Shown piece after piece: positions 2,257-41,583 of a DNA stretch of 41,583 nucleotides. A program made the translations under genes and the position numbers. Positions within the stretch are counted from its first letter, which is position 1. Each line of letters begins with the position of its first letter. The stretch is from Chitinispirillales bacterium (GTDB lineage Bacteria; Fibrobacterota; Chitinivibrionia; Chitinivibrionales; Chitinispirillaceae). The stretch lies in the NCBI GenBank assembly GCA_031283085.1, contig JAITCM010000110.1:1-41583 (forward strand), in the 5' to 3' direction. Under the pieces are notes generated by a model. That model was not told the DNA's origin and did no database searches. It saw only the letters and a program-made list of their open reading frames with translations.

Positions 2257-5200
2257 ATGATGACGTTTGCCAAAAAACGGACGAAATACGGTGTTGCCGG
2301 AGTAGGGGCTGCGCTGGCGGTTTTGACGGCGGCCGCCGCGGGGTGGGCGGCGGATATCACCGTGTGCAAGGCTACGGGAGACGACGCGTGTATGTTCAAG
2401 ACCGTGCAGGAGGCGGTCAACGCGGCGCGGCCGGGGCAGGTTATCGAGATTATGGATACGGAAACTTATGAGGAGCAGGTTACCATCGACGGGCGGGGGG
2501 AGTGGAACGAGGCGTCGGTGTGGGACCAGCATAACCAAGGGCCCATAAAGGCGGTTAAGGGTGGGAAGAACGGGATTACCATAAAGTACGCGCCGACCGG
2601 GGCGCGATTGTTCGGGACTCATGCCCGGCCTACTATTAAGTGGAAAGATGTGACTAATAGAAGTCCCAACGGAACGGCGGAAGCCGCTAGAGACGGCGAA
2701 TTGACGGGGACATCCGGGAACTTTGAGACGTGCGGGGCGTTGCGCATAATCCGCGCTCAGGGGGTTACCATAGATGGAATAAAGGTGGACGGCGGCGGGC
2801 AGGCGCCGTTTGAAAACAAATCCACCTGGGGGATATACCCGCTGTTCCATGGCAACGCCGCCCTTACCATCGTGGTGTCGGGCGGGGCGGTGATACGGAA
2901 CTGCGATATCACAAACGGGTACTTCGGGATAAACGTGAAAGACAGGAACACGGGCGGCGTCTTCGGGAACCCGAACCCGAATGACAATGACCGCACCATC
3001 CCCCTCTCCGGTTTCGGCAAAGTCGGCAACCATATTATTGAGTACAATAAAATACACAACAACGTGACGGGGATATTCTTTGAGTCAGCGTGGGATTTGG
3101 GGTCAACTGTCCGGTACAACCTGATTTACAGCAACATACATCAGGCGTCGCTGCTGTCCGGTATGGACAACCCGGACAATTCCGTGGGAGGGGCCATACT
3201 CTTCAAAGATATGAAATACACACCGGTTGCCATCTACAACAACACCTTCTACAACAATTCCGGGAATATACTGGGCGGGTGGAAGATTGCCGCGCCGCAC
3301 CTGCTCTTTAACAATATATTCGGCAAGCCGAGTTACGCCGTCGGCGCCCGTCCGCCCAACTCGGTGGGGAACGCGATGTTTGAGCACAGGTTCCCGTACA
3401 GGATGCACAACACGCTGTTTTCCGCCACCGCCGATTTGAAATCCGAGAAACGGTACATCAATCAGTGCAAAAGGCCGGGGGATTATACCGTTACCCCGCA
3501 GATACCGGAGATATCGGGGCAGGAGCTCTTCGGCATTACCCAGGTCAGGATAGATAACAACATTCCCAATCCGCCCACAGGCCCCACGCAGATAGAGTGT
3601 ATAGGCGTGCTTGCCGGAACGACGGTAACAACAGACCAATTTATCGCGCCGGGCGGATTGATTACCGGCACGGTATTTGAGGCGTCGGCCAACATTCGCT
3701 GGCTCGAGACCTCAAAGTCGGTTGACGGGACGGAGGACTTGTTTGTCTCCGTCGACCCGGCCTCGTCCGACTTTCTCAGGCCCAAGTGGGAACACGCGCT
3801 TGTCACGCAGTATATAAAGAATAAGGGATGGACGGGCATAGGGATGAAGAATTCGGACGGGGCGGACGCCGACATAGGCGCGATATCGTCGACCGGCCGG
3901 GCGCCTGCTACCGTGGCGCGGGTCAAGCCGTCAAATGTGGTGCTTGTGACTGGCACCAGCGCTAAGGCGAGTTTCTTTGTCACGGTCGAGAGCGGCCAGC
4001 TCAACAACGCTAAAATCAGCTTCCTGCGCTGGGTGGCGCCACTGCCGACCAATCCGCCCGAACCGTCCGGCAACTCGGCTCCGGCCGTGCCGAAAGCTAA
4101 CCACCACCAGCTAACGGCGCCGGCGGCGGCCATAGCGGTCAACGGCAACAACACGCTCACCTTTACCATTCCCGCCCTGCCCACGCTTACGGGGGCCGAT
4201 TCGGCCGGTCAATACGGCTTCTTTGAGGTCGTAGTCTCCGGCACCGACGCGGCCGGCAATCCCGTGGCCTCAGACATAGGCTTCCTGCCCTACCGCAAGC
4301 TCGAATATACCCTGAAGATGGAGGTCTTCACGACTGCCGGCGTGAAGACTGCCACGGTTAACGCGGGCGAGCAGTACCGTCTCCAGGTAACGCCGTGCAA
4401 AGGCTCCGACCCGGCCAACTGCGGGTCGTATACGGATGGCCCGCTTAGCGAGGTATCTTACGAACTCCAATCCGACGCGGCGGCGTTCATGTACACCTGG
4501 AATACCGAGACCCCGTTTACCCAGGACGGGCCTGCTCCCAGCGCTAATATTACCAGCGCCGGTAAATCCTATAACGTTTACTTCACCCGCGCCGGCGCGG
4601 AGACGATAATGGCTTCCGGCGTAGCCAATGTGGGGGGCGGGCGTTTAGTCTTTCTCGGTACCGCCGACATTACCGTGAGGCCCGGGGCGCCCGACCACCT
4701 AATCTTCACCGACCCAATCCCTCTAAGCCAGTTGGGCAGCGCCCCCGCCACCGTGATAAATCGCGGCGTTGACCGTGAGGTTACCGTTAAGGTTGAGGAC
4801 AAGTGGGGCAACGCCGTTGACGTGCCGGTTCAGGTTACCATCAGTTCCAACAATACCGCGGTCGGCGATGTGGGCGCTCCGGGCAATATTAATACGAAGA
4901 CCGTGACTACGACCGGGACGACCGGCGTCGCCGAATTCGTTGCGCGGACGGCTCCCGGCGCGGCGCAGAATCAGACGTTTGACATGACCGCCACAGCCGG
5001 TATCACCGGCGGCACACAGGGGCAGAATGATAACGTGGGCCGTTTGCGCGTCGGCCGCGCCCTCGACCGTCTCGAAGTCTTCTACAGCGACAACGGGCCG
5101 GGCAAGCAGTGGCAAACATATTACGACCCTACCGTAACCATCGACAGGAACGTGGGGGAATGGGCGCAGATTGCAGTGAAGGTACTGGTCGGCGACACCG

Positions 5201-7311
5201 TCAACACCGGTCGCCCGAATCAATTTGTGCTGGTTAGCCCCAGCGACCCCAATCTGGTGTTTAGCGCGACGGAGGGCGGCGCCGCCGCCACGGTGTTTCC
5301 GCTTACCGGGGGCGTGGCGACCTTCTGGGTGGGCACGGCGCCCGGTACCGACAGGGACATAAGCAACGCCGGCATAAACGTTTACGCGCTGCGCGCAAAT
5401 AACGCCGATGATATCGACGCGTCCATAGCGTCCGGCGGCAGGGAGAACATCAATTTCAATGTGCTTCTCACCGCCATTGAATACGCGGTGGTGTACGGCG
5501 ACGGTCAGGGGCGCCCTGACAGTTTGCGTATACGCTATTTGGAGGGCGGCGTTCCGTTGACCGGTGCCGGGGCGAAGCCGAACAGGGTTACGCTGACCTG
5601 GAGCGGGGTTGTCTTGACCGCTGAGGGCGCGGCGGTAAGCGTAGTGAACGACGTTGTGCTGGGCGCCAAGTTTACGGGGGATACGAGGCCGACGGGGAAG
5701 ACTTCCATCGGTGGAGTGGGGGCGGGCCTTGTGAAGGTGTACGGCGGCAGCGGCGGGACGGACGCGGTTGAGGAGGTGCCCTCTTTGTATGACGGTGTGG
5801 GGCCGGTGCTGGCCAACGGCGGCGCCGAGGATGGCGCGGACGGCAGCGCCCCGCTGCTATATGAGAATGTGGATAACAGCGATGTTGACACTATTGTCAT
5901 AACGTTCTCCGAGGATATCCGCGACGTTAGCAAGTTGACGAAGCTATTGTATAAGGCGCCGACGGCCAATCCCGGCGAGCCTTCCGGAGCGGTGGACGGT
6001 GTGCAGCTCACGGTGCTCGGCGTAACTCCCATCGGCGGCCGCGCCTACAAACTGGCTGTGAGGCACACGGACGACGGGCCCATTCCGGGGGGATGGCTCC
6101 GGCTTAACCCGGGCGCGGACGCCGTTGCCGATAATGCCGCGACGCAGTCGGCGGGCGTTGTGGAGGACAACAGGCCGCATGATAAAAACCGTTGGGTGAA
6201 GTTGAATTTGCAAGGCCGGCCCCCCACAGTCAAAAGCGCCTGGTACACCGCCAGCAGCGCCACGGGTAAGCCCAATTACGCCTACGTGGAGTTCAGCAAG
6301 GATATTGACGACCTGAGCAGGTGGTTCTCAGGCGGCAGCGTCAAATTTGACGCGGTCAAAACTGTGTCCGACGTCAGCTCGTTATTCGCCGTTGTGGACG
6401 GCGCCACGCTGAGGATAGACCTGAGCGCGGCGACCGACTTCGCGTCGCCGACGTCGACCGCCATCAGAACCTCCGGCGATATGCAGTTTACGTTGACTTT
6501 CGGCCCGGCCGTTGGGGAGGAATGGGGCTTCGTGTCGGATGTGGCCGCGGACAGGGCCAAACCGGTGCTGGCCTTAGGCGCCGAACTTAAGACCGGCTCG
6601 CCCAAGGGTGCCGCCGGAGAGGGCTTTAACCTGGACACGCTGGTTGTGTACTACAGCGAATCAATCAGCGCGACGGCGCTGGCGGCGGATAACCCTGTAA
6701 CGCTGCGGGCGAAAGGCGGCAAGTACTCATCGTTCGAGCCGGAGTTGCGGTTATTGGAGGCGCGCCCCGATAAGGGTTTTTATATGGCGAGATACCTGGT
6801 AGTCAACGAATTCCCACAGTCTGAGTACCCGGAATCGGGCGATTCTGTCCACATTTGCCATACTGCGCAAATCGGGGATTCCATGGTTGTGTCCAACGTG
6901 CAGGACTCCTCGAATAACAAATGGCAGCCGCTCACAGTTAAACGGGCGTCTAACTGGAAAATCATGGTCGGGAGCAACCCGTTCGTGAGCGACGCGTCGG
7001 GGGCGAAGTCCATGGGTTTTGTGTTTGACCCGAGGCCGCGGGGCGTGACGAAGATGACGGTCAAAGCCAATATAAAGATATTCGACAATTTGGGCGCGCT
7101 GGTGATGGATACGACGATTGATAACGGGGACGGGAGCGGTGATAAGATGATTTCCTGGAAATGGCGCGGCGAAAACAAGAGGGGTCGTCTGGTGGGTACC
7201 GGCACATATCTCCTCAGGGCGACGTGCGAATCGAAAGCGGACGGGGACAGCAGGCCGGACATATACAAAGTGCCCACCCAGATGTTAGGCGTGGTAAGGG
7301 GCAAGCGGTGA
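2257..7311 (+). CDS. Giant secreted protein: signal peptide, beta-helix, Ig-like repeats, FlgD-like C-terminus
   Basis: The protein has 1684 residues. Residues 1-31 form a signal peptide (basic KKRTK, then an Ala/Val-rich core ending AGWA). Residues ~32-545 look like a right-handed parallel beta-helix: an opening FKTVQEAVNAARPGQVIEI, repeated short N-rich turns such as IYNNTFYNNSG, and a closing DADIGAI. Residues ~830-920 resemble a Big_1-type Ig domain (VEDKWGNAVDVPVQV). From ~1080, four SbsA-like Ig units follow (RPDSLRIRY, VDTIVITFSEDI, KPNYAYVEFSKD, LDTLVVYYSESI). Residues ~1570-1684 are a FlgD-like domain (RGRLVGTGTYLLR). The ATG at 2257 has an AGGGGG ribosome site 5 bases upstream; the ATG at 2260 is an alternative. 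Beta-helix proteins often bind or cleave polysaccharides, but no lyase or hydrolase active site can be assigned, so the function remains open: adhesin, carbohydrate-binding or structural surface protein. Confidence 0.92.
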   Translation: MMTFAKKRTKYGVAGVGAALAVLTAAAAGWAADITVCKATGDDACMFKTVQEAVNAARPGQVIEIMDTETYEEQVTIDGRGEWNEASVWDQHNQGPIKAVKGGKNGITIKYAPTGARLFGTHARPTIKWKDVTNRSPNGTAEAARDGELTGTSGNFETCGALRIIRAQGVTIDGIKVDGGGQAPFENKSTWGIYPLFHGNAALTIVVSGGAVIRNCDITNGYFGINVKDRNTGGVFGNPNPNDNDRTIPLSGFGKVGNHIIEYNKIHNNVTGIFFESAWDLGSTVRYNLIYSNIHQASLLSGMDNPDNSVGGAILFKDMKYTPVAIYNNTFYNNSGNILGGWKIAAPHLLFNNIFGKPSYAVGARPPNSVGNAMFEHRFPYRMHNTLFSATADLKSEKRYINQCKRPGDYTVTPQIPEISGQELFGITQVRIDNNIPNPPTGPTQIECIGVLAGTTVTTDQFIAPGGLITGTVFEASANIRWLETSKSVDGTEDLFVSVDPASSDFLRPKWEHALVTQYIKNKGWTGIGMKNSDGADADIGAISSTGRAPATVARVKPSNVVLVTGTSAKASFFVTVESGQLNNAKISFLRWVAPLPTNPPEPSGNSAPAVPKANHHQLTAPAAAIAVNGNNTLTFTIPALPTLTGADSAGQYGFFEVVVSGTDAAGNPVASDIGFLPYRKLEYTLKMEVFTTAGVKTATVNAGEQYRLQVTPCKGSDPANCGSYTDGPLSEVSYELQSDAAAFMYTWNTETPFTQDGPAPSANITSAGKSYNVYFTRAGAETIMASGVANVGGGRLVFLGTADITVRPGAPDHLIFTDPIPLSQLGSAPATVINRGVDREVTVKVEDKWGNAVDVPVQVTISSNNTAVGDVGAPGNINTKTVTTTGTTGVAEFVARTAPGAAQNQTFDMTATAGITGGTQGQNDNVGRLRVGRALDRLEVFYSDNGPGKQWQTYYDPTVTIDRNVGEWAQIAVKVLVGDTVNTGRPNQFVLVSPSDPNLVFSATEGGAAATVFPLTGGVATFWVGTAPGTDRDISNAGINVYALRANNADDIDASIASGGRENINFNVLLTAIEYAVVYGDGQGRPDSLRIRYLEGGVPLTGAGAKPNRVTLTWSGVVLTAEGAAVSVVNDVVLGAKFTGDTRPTGKTSIGGVGAGLVKVYGGSGGTDAVEEVPSLYDGVGPVLANGGAEDGADGSAPLLYENVDNSDVDTIVITFSEDIRDVSKLTKLLYKAPTANPGEPSGAVDGVQLTVLGVTPIGGRAYKLAVRHTDDGPIPGGWLRLNPGADAVADNAATQSAGVVEDNRPHDKNRWVKLNLQGRPPTVKSAWYTASSATGKPNYAYVEFSKDIDDLSRWFSGGSVKFDAVKTVSDVSSLFAVVDGATLRIDLSAATDFASPTSTAIRTSGDMQFTLTFGPAVGEEWGFVSDVAADRAKPVLALGAELKTGSPKGAAGEGFNLDTLVVYYSESISATALAADNPVTLRAKGGKYSSFEPELRLLEARPDKGFYMARYLVVNEFPQSEYPESGDSVHICHTAQIGDSMVVSNVQDSSNNKWQPLTVKRASNWKIMVGSNPFVSDASGAKSMGFVFDPRPRGVTKMTVKANIKIFDNLGALVMDTTIDNGDGSGDKMISWKWRGENKRGRLVGTGTYLLRATCESKADGDSRPDIYKVPTQMLGVVRGKR
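5281..5394 (+). repeat. Block identical to bases 3-116 of the upstream paralogue
   Basis: Bases 5281-5394 are identical to 3-116 (offset 5278), and 5279-5280 also match bases 1-2. Identity may therefore continue upstream beyond the window. Immediately after 5394 the two genes diverge to ordinary paralogue similarity. The sharp edge suggests recent gene conversion or unequal recombination between the tandem copies. Confidence 0.9.
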
Positions 7312-36277: not shown

Positions 36278-37801
36278 CTAATACGACTTAGCGAAAATCA
36301 CCCGGTGGGATGATTTCTCCCCGCTGATAACGCACTTCCCCTCTTCCGTCTTCCCGTCGAGCGGGATACAGCGGATTGTCACGTTCAAATCGTTCTTAAT
36401 CTGTTCTTCTACCTGTGCCGAACCGTTCCAGTGGCATAGCGCGAAACCGCCGTGGATTTCCGGCTTCTCTTTGTTCGCGGGGGTGAAGAACTCGTAGAAC
36501 TCATCTTTGTTATCGATGATTCTGATATTGTTGTCCCGAAACGTTTTTGCCCGCGTGAACAGGTTATTCTGGATGTCCGTTAATATATCGGGCGCCTTGT
36601 TGACAAACTCCGTTCTTTGCATGGTAAAGCGCTCCTTGCGGCTCTTGTCGCGGCGGCCGACGAATACGGAATCGGAGGCGATGTCGCGCGGGCCTGTCTC
36701 CAAGTAGACGGGGACGCCTTTTTTTATCCACGACCAGACCTTGTCGCCGCCGCGGCCCTCACGCTTGTCAACCTCCACCTCAAGCCGCCTGTCGTCGTAT
36801 ATGACCCGTTTTAACTCCGCGGCTAACTTGTCGCAGTATTCAAACACATCGTTTGACGTCGCGTCGTCATGTATAATGGGCAAAATAACAATATGCGACG
36901 GCGCCAGTCTCGGCGGGACTATCAGACCGTCGTCGTCGCCGTGCGTCATGATGAGCCCGCCGATGAGCCGCGTGGAGACGCCCCAACTCGTCGTCCAGGC
37001 GTACTCGTCCTTTCCCTCCGCATCAAGGAACTTGATGTCGAAAGCCCTGGAAAAATTCTGCCCCAAAAAATGCGACGTACCGGCCTGAAGCGCCTTGCGG
37101 TCCTGCATCATCGCCTCTATGCAGTACGTTGATACCGCTCCCGGAAAGCGCTCCGACTCCGTCTTCTCGCCCTTTATTACCGGCATCGCCATATACTCCT
37201 CCGCGAACTTGCCGTACACGTCGAGCATCTTCATCGTCTCCTCTTGCGCCTCTTTGAGCGTGCTGTGGGCGGTGTGGCCCTCCTGCCACAGGAACTCCGT
37301 TGTCCGCAAAAAGAGCCTTGTGCGCATCTCCCACCGCACGATGTTGGCCCATTGATTTATCAACAGCGGCAAATCCCGGTAAGACTGCGTCCATTTGGCA
37401 AACATCGTGCCGATGATGGTCTCGGAGGTCGGGCGGACAACGAGCGGTTCCTCAAGCTCGCCCGCCGGAACAAGCTTCCCGTCCGGCCCGGCCTGAAGGC
37501 GGTGATGCGTAACCACGGCGCACTCTTTGGCAAACCCCTCAACGTGCTGAGCCTCTTTCTCCAAAAAGCTCTTGGGGATGAAGAGCGGAAAGTAGGCGTT
37601 CTTGTGGCCGGTTTCCTTGAACATCCCGTCAAGCACCCCCCGGATGTTCTCCCAGAGCGCGTAGCCCCAGGGCTTGATGACCATGCACCCGCGAACCGGC
37701 GAGTTCTCGGCCAGGTCGGCGGCCTTTACCACCTGTTGATACCACTCGGGGTAATCATCAAGACGGGTCGGGGTGATAGCCGTTTTTGGTTGAGATGCCA
37801 T
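36278..37801 (-). CDS. proS: Prolyl-tRNA synthetase (short, archaeal/eukaryote-like type)
   Basis: The 507-residue class II aminoacyl-tRNA synthetase has motif 1 region MVIKPWGYALWENIRGVLDGMF, the proline-site PTSETIIGTMFAKW, motif 2 (MRTRLFLRTTEFLWQEGHTAH) and motif 3 region WGVSTRLIGGLIMTHGDDDGLIVPPRLAP. An anticodon-binding domain follows, and a C-terminal extension ends in ...FAKSY. There is no editing insertion between motifs 2 and 3, and the length fits the ~500-residue ProS type found in archaea, eukaryotes and some bacteria. The ATG at 37801 has AAGGAG about 12 bases upstream. Confidence 0.96.
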   Translation of the reverse strand: MASQPKTAITPTRLDDYPEWYQQVVKAADLAENSPVRGCMVIKPWGYALWENIRGVLDGMFKETGHKNAYFPLFIPKSFLEKEAQHVEGFAKECAVVTHHRLQAGPDGKLVPAGELEEPLVVRPTSETIIGTMFAKWTQSYRDLPLLINQWANIVRWEMRTRLFLRTTEFLWQEGHTAHSTLKEAQEETMKMLDVYGKFAEEYMAMPVIKGEKTESERFPGAVSTYCIEAMMQDRKALQAGTSHFLGQNFSRAFDIKFLDAEGKDEYAWTTSWGVSTRLIGGLIMTHGDDDGLIVPPRLAPSHIVILPIIHDDATSNDVFEYCDKLAAELKRVIYDDRRLEVEVDKREGRGGDKVWSWIKKGVPVYLETGPRDIASDSVFVGRRDKSRKERFTMQRTEFVNKAPDILTDIQNNLFTRAKTFRDNNIRIIDNKDEFYEFFTPANKEKPEIHGGFALCHWNGSAQVEEQIKNDLNVTIRCIPLDGKTEEGKCVISGEKSSHRVIFAKSY

Positions 37802-38053: not shown

Positions 38054-38401
38054 ATGCTAACTATAGAAAAAAACTGGCATTTGGTAGAAGAAATGACCGA
38101 AAGGCTCAAGACGTTGAGGCCTTACCGGGTCATTTTGTTCGGTTCATACGCCCGAGGCAACCCAACGGATGACAGCGACCTCGATGTAGCGGTGGTTTTG
38201 GACAATAACGATATTATAGAAAAATTTACGGAAAGAATGAACAGGCGAAATCTTGTAACAAAGGCCGTCCGGGAGATTAATTACAAAATCGCCATGGATA
38301 TAATGGTGTATTCTAAAGCGGAAATAGATTATCTGCGAAACGAAGGATGCGATTTTGTGAAAGAAATTGAAAGCACAGGCAAGGTGCTGTATGAAAAATA
38401 A
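38054..38401 (+). CDS. MNT-type nucleotidyltransferase (MNT/HEPN toxin-antitoxin module)
   Basis: The 115-residue minimal nucleotidyltransferase has the signature VILFGSYARGNPTDDSDLDVAVV: Gly30-Ser31 and metal-binding Asp42 and Asp44. A third acidic residue is probably supplied by the MDIMVYS strand. In MNT/HEPN pairs the MNT protein is the antitoxin and, in studied systems, modifies the HEPN toxin by adding AMP. The stop overlaps the HEPN start by 11 bases, so translation is coupled. AT-richer than neighbouring housekeeping genes, which suggests mobility. Confidence 0.92.
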   Translation: MLTIEKNWHLVEEMTERLKTLRPYRVILFGSYARGNPTDDSDLDVAVVLDNNDIIEKFTERMNRRNLVTKAVREINYKIAMDIMVYSKAEIDYLRNEGCDFVKEIESTGKVLYEK

Positions 38402-38783
38402 AACCAGCGGTTGGGTATTTTTCGCCGACAAAGATATGCTAATGGCAAGAGCCGTGACAGGCAACGCCGAATTAACTGGAGGAGTTGCGTTTCATTGCCA
38501 GCAGGCTATAGAAAAATTCCTTAAAGCCTACCTGTCCGAGCACGATAAGGAAGTTCGCAAAACTCATGACCTGCTGAGTTTATATTCTGAAGCCAAAAAC
38601 ATTCAGGACTGGAATTTAGATGAGGATATGCTCAAAAATATCAGCGATATCTATATAGAGCTTCGCTATCCCGTGAATATCGCTATGAAACCGGATGGAT
38701 TATTACCGTCAATAGAGGAAGCGCAGAGTTATTGGGAGTTTGCCCGGACCGTTGAGAGGGTTTTTAGGAGTTTGGTGAAGTAA
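38391..38783 (+). CDS. HEPN-domain protein (toxin partner of MNT)
   Basis: The 130-residue helical protein has the HEPN core FHCQQAIEKFLKAYLSEH and VRKTHDLLSL, whose Arg56...His59 region supplies the RNase-type active-site residues expected in this family. The C-terminal segment YPVNIAMKPDGLLPSIEEAQSYWEFARTV is also typical. It starts inside the end of the MNT gene. HEPN toxins of this kind cut RNA when released from the antitoxin. The spacing between Arg and His is short here, so activity is not certain. Confidence 0.88.
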   Translation: MKNKTSGWVFFADKDMLMARAVTGNAELTGGVAFHCQQAIEKFLKAYLSEHDKEVRKTHDLLSLYSEAKNIQDWNLDEDMLKNISDIYIELRYPVNIAMKPDGLLPSIEEAQSYWEFARTVERVFRSLVK

Positions 38784-39316: not shown

Positions 39317-40885
39317 TCAAACCCCCATTAACGCGTTCAATTTTTCAAAGTCCAGCGTCGCGAAAAGGTCGTCCAGCGTCTCCGCCCGCCTGATTTCTAT
39401 GACCTCCCCGTTCTCGCGGCGCAGCAGCTCCGCGCTCCGCAGTTTTCCGTTGTAGTTGAAACCCATGGCGTGGCCGTGGGCGCCGGCGTCGTGGATTACC
39501 ACAATATCGCCCGGAACGATTTCCGGCAGTCTCCTGTCAATCGCGAACTTGTCGTTATTCTCGCATAGCGAACCCGTTACGTCGTATAATTGACTCGCGG
39601 GATTGTCCTCTTTTCCGATAACGGTTATATGATGATACGCCCCGTAGAGCGCCGGGCGCATCAGATTTGCCATGCAGGCGTCTAACCCCACGTAATTTTT
39701 GTACGTCTTCTTGACGTGCAGAACCCGCGATACCAAAAAACCGTAGGGGCCGGTCATCATCCGCGCGCTCTCTAAACATATTTTTAACGGATGCAGGCCG
39801 GCGGGTACGACAATCCTCTCGTACGCCGCTTTCATCTCCGCCGAGACCGCCTCCAAATCGACCGGCTTCTGGTCGGGACGGTACGGAATTCCGATTCCGC
39901 CGCCCAGATTCACGAACTCAAACTTGAGCCCAAGCTCCTTCGACACCTCCGCGGCAAGCTCAAACAGCATTACCGCGGTGTCAACGAAATATTGACCGTT
40001 AAGCTCGTTCGACGCGACCATCGTGTGCAGCCCGAAGCGCTTCACGCCTTTGTCCCGCAAAATTTTGTACCCCTCGAAAACCTGCTCCCGCGTGAAACCG
40101 TACTTTGCCTCTACCGGATTGCCGATGATGGAGTTTCCCGTCCGCGCCGCGCCGGGGTTGTAGCGTACGCAAATCAAGTCGGGTATTCCGGCGTGCTCCT
40201 CCAAAAACGGGATGTGGCTGATGTCGTCCAAGTTGATAACCGCACCCATCGCTTTCGCGGCCTTGAACTCATTCGCGGGGGTGTCGTTGGAGGTGAACAT
40301 CACGCTCTCCCCGCAAATCCCGCACCGCTCCGCCAGCGTCAATTCAGGCAAAGAGCTGCAATCAGCCCCCATCCCCTCCTGCTTGAAGATGCTCATAAGG
40401 TACGGGTTCGGCGCCGCTTTCACCGCGAAGTATTCAAAGAAAGACGGTGCCCAGGAAAACGCCGCCTTTAAGCGCTTCGCGTTATCCCGTATGCCCTTTT
40501 CGTCATAGATGTGAAAAGGCGTGGCATGGCGCTCGGCGATTGCCCGGAACTCCCCGGTTGTGAACGGCAATTCCTTTTTGCAGGGCGCGTCCCGATCATA
40601 GAAAACCTGCCCGACCCGCTCTATATGTTCCACCAGGTTCTCGTTCTTGATGTCTTTGAGGATAGACAGATCGCACATATAAGGGATGGGCAGGTCATCA
40701 ATCAGCCGCGCGAGCCTCCCCCGCTCCTTAAACGGGACATCACCCACCAGCGTCAGGTCTATGTCCGAGCCGTTCCGGTAATCGCCGCGCGCCCGCGAAC
40801 CGTAGATAACCACCTTCTCAACTTCCGGGCAATCGCGAAATATCTCATTTATCATCTCCACTGTTTCGTTGGGAAGGCCAAACAT
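39317..40885 (-). CDS. lysA: MNT nucleotidyltransferase-diaminopimelate decarboxylase fusion
   Basis: The 522-residue protein combines two domains. Residues 1-~100 are a complete HI0073-type nucleotidyltransferase (VVIYGSRARGDYRNGSDIDLTLV; Gly29-Ser30, Asp41, Asp43). Residues ~105-522 are a full-length PLP-dependent LysA, with PLP-binding Lys156 in EYFAVKAAPN, GADCSSLPEL, a GLHTMVAS block, FVNLGGGIGIPY for phosphate binding, and CENNDKFA plus HDAGAHGHAMGFNYNG at the dimer active site. LysA makes lysine from meso-diaminopimelate. There is no stop, ATG or good ribosome site at the junction; a TTG in ...KKELPF is the only candidate restart. The HI0074-type partner gene lies 14 bases upstream on the same strand. 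Confidence 0.92.
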   Translation of the reverse strand: MFGLPNETVEMINEIFRDCPEVEKVVIYGSRARGDYRNGSDIDLTLVGDVPFKERGRLARLIDDLPIPYMCDLSILKDIKNENLVEHIERVGQVFYDRDAPCKKELPFTTGEFRAIAERHATPFHIYDEKGIRDNAKRLKAAFSWAPSFFEYFAVKAAPNPYLMSIFKQEGMGADCSSLPELTLAERCGICGESVMFTSNDTPANEFKAAKAMGAVINLDDISHIPFLEEHAGIPDLICVRYNPGAARTGNSIIGNPVEAKYGFTREQVFEGYKILRDKGVKRFGLHTMVASNELNGQYFVDTAVMLFELAAEVSKELGLKFEFVNLGGGIGIPYRPDQKPVDLEAVSAEMKAAYERIVVPAGLHPLKICLESARMMTGPYGFLVSRVLHVKKTYKNYVGLDACMANLMRPALYGAYHHITVIGKEDNPASQLYDVTGSLCENNDKFAIDRRLPEIVPGDIVVIHDAGAHGHAMGFNYNGKLRSAELLRRENGEVIEIRRAETLDDLFATLDFEKLNALMGV

Positions 40886-40898
40886 TTTATTTCCGCTC

Positions 40899-41309
40899 CT
40901 ATTTGTATTGTTTCATAATTGCAAGAAAGTTTTTCAATTCTTCTATGTAAGAATTTGTAACGGACGTAATGACCTTAATCGCGATAGTCTCATCGTAGCA
41001 GTGCGATGTTTCGTTTCGTCTGTTAATCATATCCATCCAAACAGCCCCGTTCTCAATAAGCCCGTAGGAAAACGCCTGCCTGATAGCGGTTCTTGAACCG
41101 ATAATGTCGATGACACCCTTTGAATACAAAAAGTCTTTCATCAGATTCCAGGCCAATTCAAACGAAAATTCAAACGCCTGAATTAAACCCATTCTCTCCA
41201 CTTCGGTCAACTCGCGTTCCAGGCTGACGGAAAAAGCCTTCTCCAAAACGGCAACGGCCTTTTCGTAATTGTCCAACCGCTGAATCCACCTCTTTTCCGG
41301 CAACGGCAT
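40899..41309 (-). CDS. HI0074-type nucleotidyltransferase substrate-binding protein
   Basis: The 136-residue all-helical protein (EKRWIQRLDNYEKAVAVLEKAF; IQAFEFSFELAWNLMKDFL; GSRTAIRQAFSYGLI; WMDMINRRNETSHCYDE) belongs to the TIGR01987/HI0074 family, a HEPN relative. It normally pairs with a separate small nucleotidyltransferase of the HI0073 type. RNETSH carries the HEPN-type Arg...His. Here the partner nucleotidyltransferase is the N-terminal domain of the downstream LysA fusion. The start at 41309 is used because family similarity begins there; an in-frame extension to 41429 overlaps the fic gene. Confidence 0.88.
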   Translation of the reverse strand: MPLPEKRWIQRLDNYEKAVAVLEKAFSVSLERELTEVERMGLIQAFEFSFELAWNLMKDFLYSKGVIDIIGSRTAIRQAFSYGLIENGAVWMDMINRRNETSHCYDETIAIKVITSVTNSYIEELKNFLAIMKQYK

Positions 41310-41325: not shown

Positions 41326-41583
41326 TCAATTATCCAAAAACTCCTCCAGCCTGTCCTTTTCCTGCAAAAATACAAATTCCGAAAACGGAACGAGGTCGCC
41401 GTCCACGGCGTAACTTTCCAAAGCGTCATAGTATATCAGCCGGCTCTCCCGCAGGATTGACACCGGCAAGAAGCCGTTTTCCATCAGGCGGAAGTTCATA
41501 AGCAGGCGCGCCGCCCGCCCGTTTCCGTCAACAAACGGGTGAATCCTCACGAACTCGGCGTGAGTCCACGCGGCCAAAACGAC
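41326..41583 (-). CDS. Fic-domain protein, C-terminal part (5' end outside window)
   Basis: The visible 85 residues contain the complete Fic motif HPFVDGNGRAARLLMN, followed by the typical ESRLIYYDALESY segment. Fic proteins transfer AMP from ATP to Ser, Thr or Tyr side chains of target proteins. They occur both as toxins and as regulators. The N-terminal region, which would show an inhibitory (S/T)xxxE(G/N) helix, is beyond the window edge. The stop is 16 bases before the start of the HI0074-type gene, so the three minus-strand genes probably form one operon. Confidence 0.9.
   Translation of the reverse strand, partial: VVLAAWTHAEFVRIHPFVDGNGRAARLLMNFRLMENGFLPVSILRESRLIYYDALESYAVDGDLVPFSEFVFLQEKDRLEEFLDN

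Follow-up and report, generated by a model that had tools for sequence, protein, structure and literature searches.

An MNT nucleotidyltransferase domain of the HI0073 class is fused in one reading frame to diaminopimelate decarboxylase (LysA), and judged from its sequence the locus is a toxin-antitoxin pair of type VII (HEPN-MNT) in which the antitoxin now forms the N-terminal domain of LysA. The type VII assignment follows from an adjacent HEPN gene with an intact RX4HXY motif together with an MNT domain with an intact GSX10DXD motif. The fusion looks real, yet it is known so far from a single genome, and both enzymes were known already.

One reading frame joins the antitoxin domain to LysA

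The window, that is, the whole stretch of 41,583 nt that was analysed, is an entire contig (C83) of the metagenome-assembled genome (MAG) of an uncultured member of the Chitinispirillia, 2.58 Mb in 144 contigs. Positions 40885..39317 (-) form a single ORF of 522 codons without an internal stop, which starts with ATG and has a good Shine-Dalgarno sequence (AGGAG) ~10 nt 5′ of that start. The encoded protein consists of a complete HI0073-class MNT antitoxin domain with a Polbeta fold (residues 1-99; 40589..40885 (-)), a joint of about four codons, and a full-length LysA (residues 104-522; 39317..40576 (-)), the former assigned by Pfam, family identity and structure match, and the latter by Pfam, NCBIfam and alignment to structure 2yxx. 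The first-pass annotation had described a complete MNT/HI0073-type domain in frame with full-length LysA, with no internal stop or ribosome site, and both the ORF and the Pfam matches agree with this: Polbeta/NTP_transf_2 (PF18765/PF01909) matched residues 10-99 (E 2.5e-14 and 2.4e-9), Orn_Arg_deC_N residues 132-378 (7.3e-26), and Orn_DAP_Arg_deC extended to residue 468 (1.2e-20).

The junction itself (40577..40588 (-)) comprises codons 100-103, GCG CCC TGC AAA, which hold no stop and have a counterpart in neither parent family. MNT homology reaches codon 98 (FYDR / FYER) and lysA homology restarts at codon 104, where the fusion reads AAG GAA TTG CCG and the sister genome G007 reads AAG GCT TTG CCG, so that codons 99-103 (GAC GCG CCC TGC AAA) lie between the two homologies. 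The sole in-frame start near the LysA boundary is the TTG of codon 106 (nt 40570), at which, the first-pass annotation had cautioned, translation might restart. An AAGGA stands 1-2 nt upstream of this TTG, too close for normal initiation, and separate translation of LysA from it is therefore unlikely; inspection of the sequence found no usable ribosome site at the junction of the fused ORF. An AlphaFold model of the fusion, whose input alignment included two MNT relatives, had a mean pLDDT of 44, at which the domain arrangement is unreadable.

An intact HEPN partner lies directly upstream

In the MNT domain, GSX10DXD is intact (GSRARGDYRNGSDID, residues 29-43, 40801..40757 (-)), with its positions invariant in 12 aligned MNTs. 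The domain is 62-73% identical to standalone MNTs of the same family, and its closest solved relative is the Legionella MNT 8xeh (E 2.7e-21), with 8xeo also among the best matches. Against NF047752, the NCBIfam model of the MntA antitoxin equivalog, it scored 30.5 bits where the cut-off is 60, and is thus not filed under that equivalog.

Directly upstream of the fusion, across a gap of 13 nt, we found the HI0074-type partner that the first-pass annotation had assumed and left unlocated: an HI0074-family HEPN toxin gene of 136 aa (40899..41309 (-)). Its product matches PF08780 (E 9.2e-42), reaches 99.7 bits against TIGR01987 (HI0074; cut-off 55.8), and has its nearest solved relative in 8xdj, the HEPN toxin of Legionella (E 7.8e-34). 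RX4HXY is intact in this product (RNETSHCY), AMP-acceptor tyrosine included, and an IQAFE stretch keeps the Q and E that match Q44 and E47, active-site residues of the Legionella toxin (PMC11586414). MNTs put AMP on the RX4HXY tyrosine of the HEPN RNase (PMC7641770, PMC11586414, which also define the two motifs). With this partner directly upstream and the motifs of both proteins intact, the antitoxin reading of the first-pass annotation is strengthened.

Beyond the HEPN gene, the C-terminal part of a Fic protein (41326..41583 (-); Pfam Fic 4.6e-11) is cut by the contig end; a Fic gene also stands just upstream of lysA in G007, with 59 of 80 residues identical. On the other side lies proS (36278..37801 (-)), which in most of the genus immediately follows lysA (lysA-proS-lgt); it is identical to that of G007 at 462 of 508 aligned positions. 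In the window a second MNT/HEPN pair, unlike the first (38054-38783 (+); MNT of 115 aa, PF05168 HEPN of 138 aa), is inserted between proS and lysA, whereas only 12 bp separate the two in G007, and lysA here thus has HEPN/MNT modules on both sides. GC content is 0.54 in the MNT part, 0.56 in the LysA part, 0.43 in the HEPN gene and 0.41-0.43 in the second pair; the values of the HEPN/MNT genes fit acquired modules, as expected. The window also holds a 1684-aa ORF (2257-7311 (+)) with no Pfam match at 1e-5. Elsewhere in the same genome, at L122 (G000:C107; 1161-1478 and 1480-2199 (-)), we noted a second HI0074-type HEPN gene with RNKTSHVY intact, beside which an MNT-like ORF has the G-loop GPRYNG...DLD in place of GS.

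The LysA part is complete and constrained

By far the best NCBIfam match of the LysA part is lysA itself (TIGR01048; 280 bits over residues 110-509, cut-off 297.9), and standalone orthologues of the same LysA type occur across the family, that of G007 being 86% identical. Residues 113-509 align residue by residue with 2yxx (E 7.9e-54) and 2p3e, both diaminopimelate decarboxylase structures. The expected motifs are present, namely the K in AVKA (154-157), GGGIGI (328-333), LESAR (371-375), CE (441-442) and NYN (477-479), and the part has the catalytic lysine, GGG loop, CE and NYN that mark two-domain PLP decarboxylases. The fusion is the sole lysA-like gene found in its genome, of which ~8% may be missing, and dapB is present. 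From this homology, the sole lysA-like gene and the presence of dapB, we infer that the LysA part decarboxylates meso-diaminopimelate. A second TIGR01048 match in the same genome was considered as another lysA and rejected, as it is ornithine-decarboxylase-like and adjoins a spermidine synthase gene. LysA uses up diaminopimelate to form lysine and is not a supplier of it, a correction to the first-pass annotation, which has this step control the diaminopimelate supply.

Compared with G007, the LysA part has a dN/dS of about 0.06 (dN 0.089), a value that is rough because dS is near saturation and that resembles those of standalone pairs. The fused LysA and the G007 LysA are equidistant from that of G002 (dN 0.161 each), with no excess dN on the fusion branch. 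The low dN/dS and the equal distance thus give no sign of relaxed constraint on LysA after the fusion. Synteny, intact motifs and purifying selection on LysA argue against decay of the fusion locus.

Relatives keep the two genes apart

The lysA 5′ end is assembled in 28 relatives, which range from members of the same genus to members of the same order; in every one of them lysA begins at an ATG or GTG of its own, a few codons ahead of K-x-LPF, and has no MNT domain. Correspondingly, 18 of 20 distinct MNT frames in related loci stop 3-14 residues past the conserved HIxRxG, and the closest MNTs of the family (G019, G010, G002, G005) end right after VGQVFY; the remaining two frames, which run >400 residues past HIxRxG, are the MNT::LysA described here and an MNT::HsdS in G025. 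Separate MNT and lysA genes were, on this distribution, the ancestral state. The first-pass annotation had counted separate genes in related genomes as a refutation of the fusion: the genes are indeed separate there, yet that is what one expects of the ancestral arrangement and is no proof of error.

The gene order in most of the genus is pgk, a variable insert, lysA, proS and lgt. No insert is present in G004 and G005, G007 has HEPN-Fic, and G002 has RelE-type genes with a divergent HEPN/MNT pair, while lysA in G001 has other neighbours. The pgk-lysA interval (L072, L073, L077, L078) varies between species and has the look of a site into which toxin-antitoxin modules insert. In G007, an HI0074-type HEPN gene (L073 4699-5121 (+), G007:C77) lies upstream of Fic and lysA with no adjoining MNT, and its active site is altered (RNETxH to RKEIPY, H to Y; also Q to K). 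An Rfam Termite-leu RNA match (L010 131-207 (+); 73.8 bits) lies upstream of these HEPN-Fic-lysA genes.

MNT::LysA was present in 1 of the 168 genomes of the phylum, and the same architecture, which the first-pass annotation had proposed to look for in related genomes, had no second occurrence in 60 relatives, in the family or among those 168. A scan of GTDB contigs with the MNT part gave two standalone MNTs and no further fusion; plasmids and phages carry MNT relatives, none with LysA among the listed features. The papers searched contained no MNT or other antitoxin joined to LysA, nor an MNT joined to any metabolic enzyme.

MNT domains fused elsewhere and their free counterparts

Joining of an MNT to an unrelated partner is not unique to LysA, as three cases indicate. 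The MNT::HsdS fusion in G025, of the same order (L069 1399-2901 (-), G025:C29), has the same class of MNT joined in frame, at the same fusion point past the VGxxFY end, to a full-length type I restriction specificity subunit; it differs in this partner, which belongs to an hsd operon, and the HI0074-type HEPN gene again lies directly upstream, between hsdM and the fusion. G138 (L104 832-1794 (+), G138:C3) has an in-frame fusion of a bacterial sugar transferase (PF02397) with an MNT domain; just downstream, in another frame, follows an HI0074-type HEPN gene. Cmr1-MntA (PDB 9z7q; match 349-400 of 438), judged here by its PDB name only, likewise joins an MNT to an unrelated protein, but its partner is a CRISPR effector and its MNT lies towards the C-terminus. 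At L105 (-) (G045:C47), an HI0074-type HEPN and an MNT apparently share one open frame of 191 aa.

The closest solved relatives of both parts of the system are those of the Legionella pneumophila HEPN-MNT pair (8xeh, 8xdj; PMC11586414). The Legionella and the fused MNT have in common the short form without alpha4, GSX10DXD, and RX4HXY in the HEPN partner, whereas the Legionella MNT is a free protein of ~108 residues and the MNT here is the N-terminus of LysA. Shewanella oneidensis MntA/HepT (PMC7641770) likewise sets an adenylyltransferase antitoxin against an RX4HXY RNase, but MntA is longer, unfused, and has a C-terminal alpha4 helix with a part in HEPN control. The family prototypes, Haemophilus influenzae HI0073/HI0074 (1no5, 1jog), are separate proteins, unlike the fusion. 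Standalone LysA of the Chitinispirillia, such as that of G007, is an orthologue in the same lysA-proS-lgt order, but with its own start codon and no MNT. In the Legionella complex, the MNT contacts HEPN through alpha2 and the alpha2-beta3 loop (PMC11586414). With the interface there and no alpha4, a C-terminal fusion need not block HEPN binding, and the C-terminus of a short MNT can plausibly carry another domain.

Proposed origin and working of the fusion

We consider it probable that one small in-frame deletion fused the MNT of a mobile HEPN-MNT module to lysA and that both activities persist. A mobile module of the HI0074/HI0073 class would have sat immediately 5′ of lysA and in its orientation, after which the deletion would have taken the MNT stop together with the lysA ribosome site and start, such that a single 57-kDa protein would now be made from the MNT ribosome site. 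Its N-terminal domain would keep the adjacent HEPN RNase inactive through AMPylation of the acceptor tyrosine of that RNase, while its C-terminal domain would still convert meso-diaminopimelate to lysine. Loss of the antitoxin would then equal loss of the sole recognisable lysA, with a presumed addiction effect, and the dose and stability of the antitoxin would follow those of LysA. What the sequence supplies for this account is the intactness of domains and motifs, the gene order and the ancestral separation of the genes.

The real genome may instead have an MNT stop and a separate lysA start, the contig having lost a short intergenic stretch or having a wrong base. Such an artefact would suit evidence that comes from one MAG of 144 contigs, with the junction ~1 kb from the contig end, and the separate genes in all relatives; moreover, a single-base change of codon 102 from TGC to TGA would give a stop followed by TTG. 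However, because the homologies extend to codon 98 and from codon 104, correcting one base would not restore a normal ribosome site and start for lysA, for which a stretch would have to be missing, and the codon-106 TTG has its AAGGA too near. A single simple base-calling slip, as we read these boundaries, cannot produce the junction, and G025 independently has its MNT::HsdS at the same domain end. We hold an artefact to be unlikely, though a real enough chance to be kept in mind.

In a broader reading, HI0073-class MNTs would be repeatedly welded to unrelated stable neighbours (LysA, HsdS in G025, the sugar transferase in G138) with HEPN staying free, and LysA-linked antitoxin dose would let loss or shortage of LysA release the RNase; this is speculative, and we rate it as quite improbable.

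Functional coupling, in which the antitoxin is under the control of LysA, through its turnover, substrate binding or amount, and the HEPN RNase is freed when lysine/diaminopimelate metabolism falters, draws on the physical linkage, on the gene order with the toxin, and on Thermus thermophilus, where the lysine operon has an inserted MNT-HEPN module in HB8 but not in HB27 (PMC2701414). Yet the architecture is not conserved (1/168 genomes), neither the window nor nine lysA loci of relatives contain a lysine riboswitch, and the other proteins fused to MNTs in this phylum, HsdS and a sugar transferase, are unrelated, as one would expect of chance neighbours. Such coupling thus seems to us very improbable. 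The first-pass annotation had offered coupling to lysine or diaminopimelate status and protection of the antitoxin by an essential gene; the former is unsupported and the latter is the better supported half, so that its interpretation overall is partly supported.

We give still less credence to a passenger role, in which the MNT has stopped acting on HEPN and extends the N-terminus of LysA without harm, with LysA alone mattering. The branch of the MNT domain is longer than its relatives', and HEPN copies at this locus can decay, as in G007 (H to Y, Q to K, no MNT); but the branch of the HEPN partner is similarly long, every MNT and HEPN catalytic motif is intact, and one would expect a HEPN RNase that is intact but lacks an active antitoxin to disappear. 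A contig chimera of unrelated pieces is unlikely because both flanks of the junction match G007, with Fic upstream and proS-lgt downstream.

The weight of the fusion as origin and working are proposed here is limited by the single MAG and the lack of a second occurrence. Antitoxins are usually small proteins, and a toxin and its antitoxin can disappear as a pair. With its antitoxin built into the front of a core biosynthetic enzyme, this toxin-antitoxin module would, if the reading is true, be a natural case of one that is hard to delete.
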